NCBI GenBank assembly: GCA_903911825.1
Contig: CAIWFB010000322.1
Location: 1-32,749, forward strand
DNA length: 32,749 bases
Direction of reading: 5' to 3'
DNA from: an uncultured Verrucomicrobia subdivision 3 bacterium
GTDB lineage: Bacteria > Verrucomicrobiota > Verrucomicrobiia > Limisphaerales > UBA11358
Made by a program: the position numbers and the translations under genes. Under the pieces are notes generated by a model, which worked only from the letters and a program-made list of their open reading frames with translations, ran no database searches and had not been told where the DNA came from. Shown piece by piece: positions 30,741 through 31,659 of this stretch (positions are counted from its first letter, which is position 1; each line of letters begins with the position of its first letter).

Positions 30741-30947
30741 GCGGCAAGGATGCGGCGGCTGGGCAAATTTGTCGAGCGATGTTGAAGTCCGGGCCACGCC
30801 AGAGCAGCAGCCTCATCCGCCTTGCGCGGCCATTCGACTTACCACGCATCGTCTCGGCAAACCCTGTTATCGCCAGGCCAAGGATGATTAGCCTGCGCGC
30901 CCAGCTTGCTTGCCCAGCAACAATCTCGTCTAACCCAACAGAAAACA

Positions 30948-31246
30948 GTGGCGCTATTTTGAAAATAGAACCACAGGGACAAAGTTTGCTAGCTTGCTCG
31001 CGCGGAATCTGTGGTTCTATTTTAGAAATAGCGCCACAGGAAAGCCTGACTCCAGCTTGGAAATGTCGTCCGAGTGGTTCTAAATGCAAAATAGAACCAC
31101 AGAAACCATTTCCGCAAGCTAGTCACCAAAGAGTTAGTGGTTCTATTTAAGAAATAGAGCCACTGAAATGATGAGTGCAAGCTAGAGCAACGAGTTTCTG
31201 TGGCTCTAATTTGAAAATAGAACCACTGAAACGGCCGGGGCCAGCT
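30948..31246. repeat. Array of five 27-bp imperfect palindromes at exact 63-bp period with AGCT-centred 36-bp spacers
   Basis: Units: 30948-30974 GTGGCGCTATTTTGAAAATAGAACCAC; 31011-31037 GTGGTTCTATTTTAGAAATAGCGCCAC; 31074-31100 GTGGTTCTAAATGCAAAATAGAACCAC; 31137-31163 GTGGTTCTATTTAAGAAATAGAGCCAC; 31200-31226 GTGGCTCTAATTTGAAAATAGAACCAC. AGCT at 30991, 31054, 31117, 31180, 31243 (every step 63 bp). Confidence 0.97.
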
Positions 31247-31400
31247 AGGTGAGCGAACCAACTAGGTCGAAAAGGCGGGGTTTTAGTGATTTTTCCGGGT
31301 TGGCAAGGTCGTTTGGCGAGGAAACTGACCTTTGACCAACGGGAACCGGCCGAGCTGGCTCCAACCCATTACAGCCAGCGCCGACGGCGCGAATGATCCT

Positions 31401-31543
31401 AGCCCGTAGTTTCAACTGCGGGTTGGCGCCACCAATCCAAACCAGTCCTGCAGGGACGACTGAACCCTAGGCGACCCTGCTTCAGCCGCCCCGGTGGGGC
31501 GGGATTGTTTTTGGCCCTGAACCCGCAGTTGAAACTGCGGGCT
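31401..31543. repeat. REP-doublet/REPIN-like inverted repeat pair
   Basis: AGCCCGTAGTTTCAACTGCGGGTT (31401-31424) and AACCCGCAGTTGAAACTGCGGGCT (31520-31543) are inverted with 1 mismatch; each half is itself palindromic; internal hairpin CCGCCCCGGTGGGGCGG at 31486-31502. Confidence 0.8.
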
Positions 31544-31659
31544 ATTTTCAATAGTCCCTGCGGGACTCCGGCGGGTAGGGCAGAGCTGCCGCTCGGCCGC
31601 GTGGCTAGACCGGCGGATGTTGGTTCCCGCCGCAGATTGCTGGCTGATTTCCGCTCTCG

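Follow-up and report, generated by a model that had tools for sequence, protein, structure and literature searches.

A palindrome array on a Verrucomicrobia subdivision 3 contig as a putative orphan of a class of helically phased 21-bp DNA elements

Plasmid iterons are tandem sites of 17-22 bp, phased at about two helical turns and placed beside one gene, and the arrays described here are alike in these respects. Rickettsia palindromic elements are repeat DNA that lies in frame within protein genes, and bear comparison with an array in alaS treated below. At parC, the centromere of type II partition systems, direct repeats of 10, 11, 17 or 20 bp lie upstream of the operon; the repeat sequence varies between plasmid families, and binding of ParR wraps the DNA into a solenoid (PMC9426499). 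BrickBuilt, a MITE of Porphyromonas gingivalis, is an intergenic, dispersed element with a spacer-free tandem array of a 23-nt unit, having one unit sequence in one species together with a leader, a tail and terminal inverted repeats (PMC4596501). The array considered here lies in an uncultured Verrucomicrobia subdivision 3 bacterium, in a window (the whole stretch of DNA analysed, 32.7 kb) with the following features.

30948 to 31226, no strand: whole array of five 27-bp palindromes, period 63 bp (3 x 21), about 13 units of 21 bp
30948 to 30974, no strand: palindrome 1, GTGGCGCTATTTTGAAAATAGAACCAC
31011 to 31037, no strand: palindrome 2, GTGGTTCTATTTTAGAAATAGCGCCAC
31074 to 31100, no strand: palindrome 3, GTGGTTCTAAATGCAAAATAGAACCAC
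31137 to 31163, no strand: palindrome 4, GTGGTTCTATTTAAGAAATAGAGCCAC
31200 to 31226, no strand: palindrome 5, GTGGCTCTAATTTGAAAATAGAACCAC
30975 to 31199, no strand: region of the four 36-bp spacers (30975-31010, 31038-31073, 31101-31136, 31164-31199), each with a midpoint AGCT
31227 to 31393, no strand: right-hand tail of a duplicated element, sharing 78% identity with its counterpart beside the array on contig C194
30132 to 30740, minus strand: nearest gene, without a Pfam match, reading away from the array and starting about 208 bp from it

The five palindromes, with the 27-bp consensus GTGGNNCTA-N9-TAGNNCCAC, start where the original prediction had placed them, at spacings of 63, 63, 63 and 63 bp without indel, and AGCT occupies positions 17-20 in 4/4 spacers. 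The palindromes are real, as claimed, but their arms are not strict: positions 5-6 read TT, CT or CG and vary independently between the two halves. No further GTGGNNCTA-N9-TAGNNCCAC site was found in the window at up to three mismatches, and a tandem repeat scan (TRF) of the window did not pick up the array because its copies are too diverged. An Rfam scan of the window gave a single match, a tRNA at 2353-2439, and none for the array, in agreement with the view that it belongs to no catalogued family. An intrinsic terminator was rejected: a terminator scan called none of the five palindromes, and one weak call, at 31001, touches both a spacer and the first bases of a palindrome. To the right of the array, at 31401-31545, lies another inverted-repeat element (GCCCGTAGTTTCAACTGCGGG ... 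CCCGCAGTTGAAACTGCGGGC) that is missing at the same point of C194.

Across the genome of origin (G000; 3.9 Mb in 354 contigs) the consensus has 17 exact matches, as against 0 for a reversed control pattern, and the window palindromes are therefore not due to chance. All 17 sites fall in four arrays, namely that of the window, C194:83681-83946, C193:20432-20710 and C173:713-970, and the same-genus genomes G016 and G003 contribute four further loci, one of them a single palindrome. A search for the pattern GGNGCTA-N9-TAGCNCC in 245 genomes of the order yielded, beyond the genus, hardly anything but isolated GC-rich sites attributable to chance, so that the palindrome family is a genus-level one. 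The suggestion of a dispersed, lineage-specific repeat thus holds for the palindromes; it does not hold for the underlying 21-bp architecture, which spans phyla and is tied to fibronectin-III genes. The AGCT midpoint, likewise, is a trait of the window and its close paralogues (3/3 intact spacers in C194, 2/4 in C193) and not a general one, being no feature of the C173, G016 or G003 arrays.

What is constant among these arrays is their spacing. Over the eight that contain several palindromes (window, C194, C193, C173, G016 C25, G016 C71, G003 C33 and the variant L079), the palindrome-to-palindrome distance is 63 bp in 18 of 26 cases, 84 bp in six, 105 bp in one and 50 bp in one; this last, the lone exception, lies in the C194 paralogue, where 13 bp have been deleted as compared with the window array. 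That 25 of the 26 are multiples of 21 has a nominal P of 2e-32, which is not a value for independent observations, since some of the arrays share descent; the dyads thus stay a whole number of two-turn steps apart. In G016 C25 and C35 a 21-bp array, in phase with the palindromes, can be seen in the sequence that separates and surrounds them. The invariant is therefore 21 bp, two helical turns, and not the 63 bp that had first been taken as the conserved length. The wider expectation of selection on geometry is borne out, copies elsewhere being spaced at 63, 84 or 105 bp where irregular spacing would have spoken against it, and the placing of all dyads on the same helix face at 10.5-bp phasing is likewise supported. 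The dyad of a cyclic unit makes a second dyad half a unit away, and the alternating dyad centres noticed at the outset are therefore the same geometry.

The arrays of C193, C173 and G016 C25 sit directly upstream of a gene that runs to about 207 codons and encodes a C-terminal fibronectin-III domain (fn3, PF00041). No such gene accompanies the window array: tblastn detected no remnant of it beside five arrays, the window's included, and since the nearest gene is divergent and has no Pfam match, the window array is an orphan. The others are those of C194, which is likewise upstream of a divergent gene, at about 200 bp, G016 C71, G016 C35 and G003 C33. An AlphaFold2 model of the fibronectin-III protein (pLDDT 92.8, 20-row alignment) predicts a helical hairpin, one helix of which is long (37-93), ahead of the fn3 domain; fold searches with the model matched the fn3 part only and returned nothing for the helical part. 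The N-terminus, a short strand-like stretch and two helices, was considered as a ribbon-helix-helix DNA-binding fold, and no search with the monomer models supported this. At E<=0.001 the family has matches in 22/59 relatives, the weakest ones being to fn3 domains in larger proteins; it also occurs in a few other lineages of Verrucomicrobiota, and in Schlesneria, Prosthecobacter, Sphingobacterium and other Bacteroidota; a search of genome contigs with a single family protein gave 19 loci. In a phage collection close relatives of the protein were absent, with one weak match in the fn3 region.

Many family members start with a short tag of repeated W/Y/F-D motifs. At loci such as L147, L148, L150, L151, L088 and L089 the tag comprises 2-3 W/Y/F-D-S/G repeats (e.g., LRWDTNGLTWDSGSTWDE) before the helical part, and at L193 it stands on a protein without an fn3 match. 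The order in most of the Sphingobacterium loci L132-L138 is a small helix-turn-helix gene, the array, the fibronectin-III gene, a DUF5675 gene and a small hydrophobic protein. At L162 (G016 C49, about 1000-2100) a gene for an integron-integrase-like tyrosine recombinase is directly followed by an array and a divergent member of the family.

The association of this family with arrays extends well beyond the genus. We looked for tandem periods of 12 to 60 in the 900 bp before each gene and counted the 48 loci with at least 600 bp of upstream sequence. At a score of at least 0.40, the top period was 20-22 bp, or double that, in 32/48 (37 when weaker or palindromic arrays are included); shuffled sequences peaked at 0.31-0.41, and the downstream sides gave essentially nothing at period 20-22. 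Array-bearing family members occur in Verrucomicrobiota, Planctomycetota and Bacteroidota. The unit sequences are locus-specific and unrelated (e.g., CGTTTCCCAGTCTTGGGAAGT, TCGATGTTCCCGCGAATTACA, GTACAAnnnnTTnnnnnnnTT, ATACGGATGTTTACTTTAAAC), as seen across Verrucomicrobiota, Schlesneria, Bacteroidetes and Sphingobacterium. In a refined set of 38 arrays, 29 adjoining the gene and nine found without bias, the unit measures 21 bp in 34, 20 bp in two and 22 bp in two, and in none 18-19 or 23-24 bp. Most have 10-17 units, a significant unit dyad is present in 29/38, and conservation within the unit has most of its power at the 10.5-bp harmonic (mean share 0.22 vs about 0.10). Among open-licence PMC papers we found none describing 21-bp arrays with fibronectin-III genes.

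Comparisons between related arrays indicate what is retained over time. The window and C194 arrays are paralogues, 79% identical over 455 bp, within a duplicated element (about 30939-31393 in the window) whose tail, 31227-31393, is present at only these two places in the genome. Between them 1/70 positions changed in the palindrome cores, 12/45 at inner palindrome positions, 25/131 in the spacers and 17/104 in the right flank; the contrast of core and spacer (Fisher P 1e-4) is partly circular because the core positions were picked by conservation. The G016 and G003 genomes carry orthologous arrays between gltX and rpoD, 474 bp at 92.4% identity with no gap and no unit turnover, while the DNA adjoining the block is unrelated and the two genes are 89.5% and 91.8% identical, respectively. 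In Sphingobacterium the L133 and L134 arrays (336 bp, 82%, no internal gap; the gene is more alike, at 93.6%) show fewer changes at conserved positions (17/144 vs 42/192, P 0.02), and the L137 and L138 arrays differ by a 21-bp gap.

The palindromes might also be regularly spaced hairpins of a transcribed, structured RNA, a role that had been among those first proposed. Every one of them could fold, and standard pairs make up 88.5% of the pair cells in the full set of 32 palindromes, slightly above shuffles. Against this, 17/64 cells are unpaired at positions 5-6, the two most variable pairs, where the halves vary independently; in three arrays of the TT type homotypic sites number 2/15 where 5.5 would be expected; there is no Rfam family for the array; and an RNA has no need for spacing quantised at 21 bp. 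We regard this reading as improbable. Still more remote, in our judgement, is a coding repeat, in which 21 bp would be seven codons and the array would belong to a gene for a repetitive protein, intact or decayed. Several relatives have an open frame through GGCGCTATTTCnAAAATAGCGCCA (GAISKIAP), and one 21-bp array, L163 (G016 C49, about 1807-2070), lies in frame within alaS, where it encodes a heptad-repeat insert of alanyl-tRNA synthetase: between residues 284 and 372 the enzyme has some 85 additional residues, made up of GSTDNPA-like repeats of seven. The window frame, by contrast, is interrupted by stops, the substitutions between the G016 and G003 arrays are spread 11/10/15 over the three codon phases, and the existence of units of 20 and 22 bp means that codon phase is not the general cause of the period.

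The main rival is a selfish or neutral minisatellite, in which replication or recombination in two-turn steps makes 21-bp arrays that disperse and decay, and nearness to the fibronectin-III gene reflects a shared carrier element. Background counts bear on it in both directions. In 1.03 Mb of DNA from genomes that possess the gene (783 kb of G016 and G306, 250 kb of G013) we found 12 arrays of period 21 or 42, about 1 per 86 kb, as against 0 in 0.64 Mb from same-genus genomes that do not (347 kb of G001, 295 kb of G033), where about 7.5 would be expected at the same rate; this co-occurrence at genome level speaks for the phased element proposed below. Only 3/12 of these arrays, found without gene-guided search, adjoin a fibronectin-III or tag gene (L162, L193 and L245); many arrays are therefore not that gene's operator, and the other nine speak for the minisatellite. 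So do the array within alaS, a place that a regulatory site need not occupy, and the precedent of BrickBuilt. The best-preserved arrays (units more than 90% alike) resemble ordinary recent tandem amplification, which counts against the phased element. In G306, moreover, one unit sequence (CAAACGGCTAGCCGGATGGAG) recurs in three arrays (L187 3901-5000, L187 7401-8500 and L147), two of which also have about 80 bp of one flank in common, so that arrays can be copied along with a flank. What this explanation leaves unaccounted for is the upstream association in three phyla and a unit length that stays fixed despite unrelated sequences. Diverged arrays have kept their phase and palindrome cores, and the G016 and G003 orthologues have lasted without unit turnover. 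Same-sequence copies, as in a many-copy minisatellite of one fixed sequence, were found within G306 only, and at the ends of the window element (30939-31393), which exists in just two homologous copies, no terminal inverted repeat was seen by eye. On balance we think a selfish origin rather unlikely, while granting it more weight than the RNA or coding readings.

We suggest instead that the window array is probably an orphan of a putative class of helically phased, multi-site DNA elements that work in the manner of iterons or parC centromeres, on the understanding that the compared genomes are mostly metagenome-assembled and the compared arrays partly related by descent. Recurrence before one gene family with unrelated sequences points to a protein-binding scaffold and not to a gene or RNA, and two-turn phasing, dyads, independent half-sites and indels of whole units would be expected of a DNA element that is bound cooperatively and recognised by a dimer. 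The observed basis of the proposal is the 21-bp quantum, the upstream position, the spread over phyla, co-occurrence with the gene family and the conserved palindrome cores. A member would be a tandem series of about 10-17 steps of 21 bp whose dyad-symmetric sites share a single helix face, and such arrays often lie just before a gene of the fibronectin-III family; the 27-bp palindromes would be the strongest dyads of this genus, standing every 3, 4 or 5 steps (6, 8 or 10 turns). A dimeric DNA-binding protein may load cooperatively on the phased sites and assemble with them into a regular nucleoprotein structure, of the kind that ParR forms on parC or Rep forms on iterons; that structure could control the linked gene or organise the local DNA. 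At the window, where the fibronectin-III gene is missing, the array now stands upstream of an unrelated divergent gene. For Sphingobacteriaceae a candidate binder is a small protein that shows a weak helix-turn-helix match and whose gene immediately precedes the array; the protein's sequence differs where the units differ, a correspondence confounded by phylogeny.

More tentatively, and with somewhat more doubt than belief, the array, as about 12 dyad-symmetric units of 20-22 bp irrespective of sequence, and the fibronectin-III protein may form one conserved genetic module in three phyla, a new chromosomal nucleoprotein system in which geometry is inherited and sequence is not, perhaps with a machinery dedicated to depositing or preserving 21-bp units. 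If geometry is selected, the arrays are natural experiments on helical phasing in dozens of unrelated sequences that have in common only the 21-bp step, the dyads and the position; they would offer a testable way into an unstudied gene family of three phyla, and insight into how regular nucleoprotein structures are built on bacterial chromosomes in settings other than plasmid partition. Were the arrays selfish, a process able to turn any sequence into two-turn units, even within a tRNA synthetase gene, would still be new.

Set beside described systems, the window array fits CRISPR in its dimensions, with a 27-bp palindromic repeat and 36-bp spacers. A CRISPR array was nevertheless rejected: the repeats are variable, both centrally and at positions 5-6, the window and C194 spacers are homologous and keep a motif, the spacings run to 63, 84 and 105 bp, and no cas gene was noticed among the ORFs near the arrays. 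Rickettsia palindromic elements, unlike the arrays here, are neither tandem nor helically phased. BrickBuilt differs in that the units here are locus-specific, 20-22 bp long, spread over three phyla and tied to one gene family. Iterons differ in that the arrays here have many copies per chromosome and no Rep-like protein, no Rep gene adjoining them and their neighbours being unrelated or without a Pfam match. From ParR/parC the arrays are set apart by being chromosomal, dispersed and multicopy, by units with internal dyads and by neighbourhoods in which, among those read, no parM- or parR-like genes occur and the linked gene encodes a helical hairpin and fn3. They share with it, as a trait of the class, a phased direct-repeat array upstream of an operon, the window copy being the array alone, and by analogy ParR on parC may serve as the nearest worked example of the mechanism proposed here.
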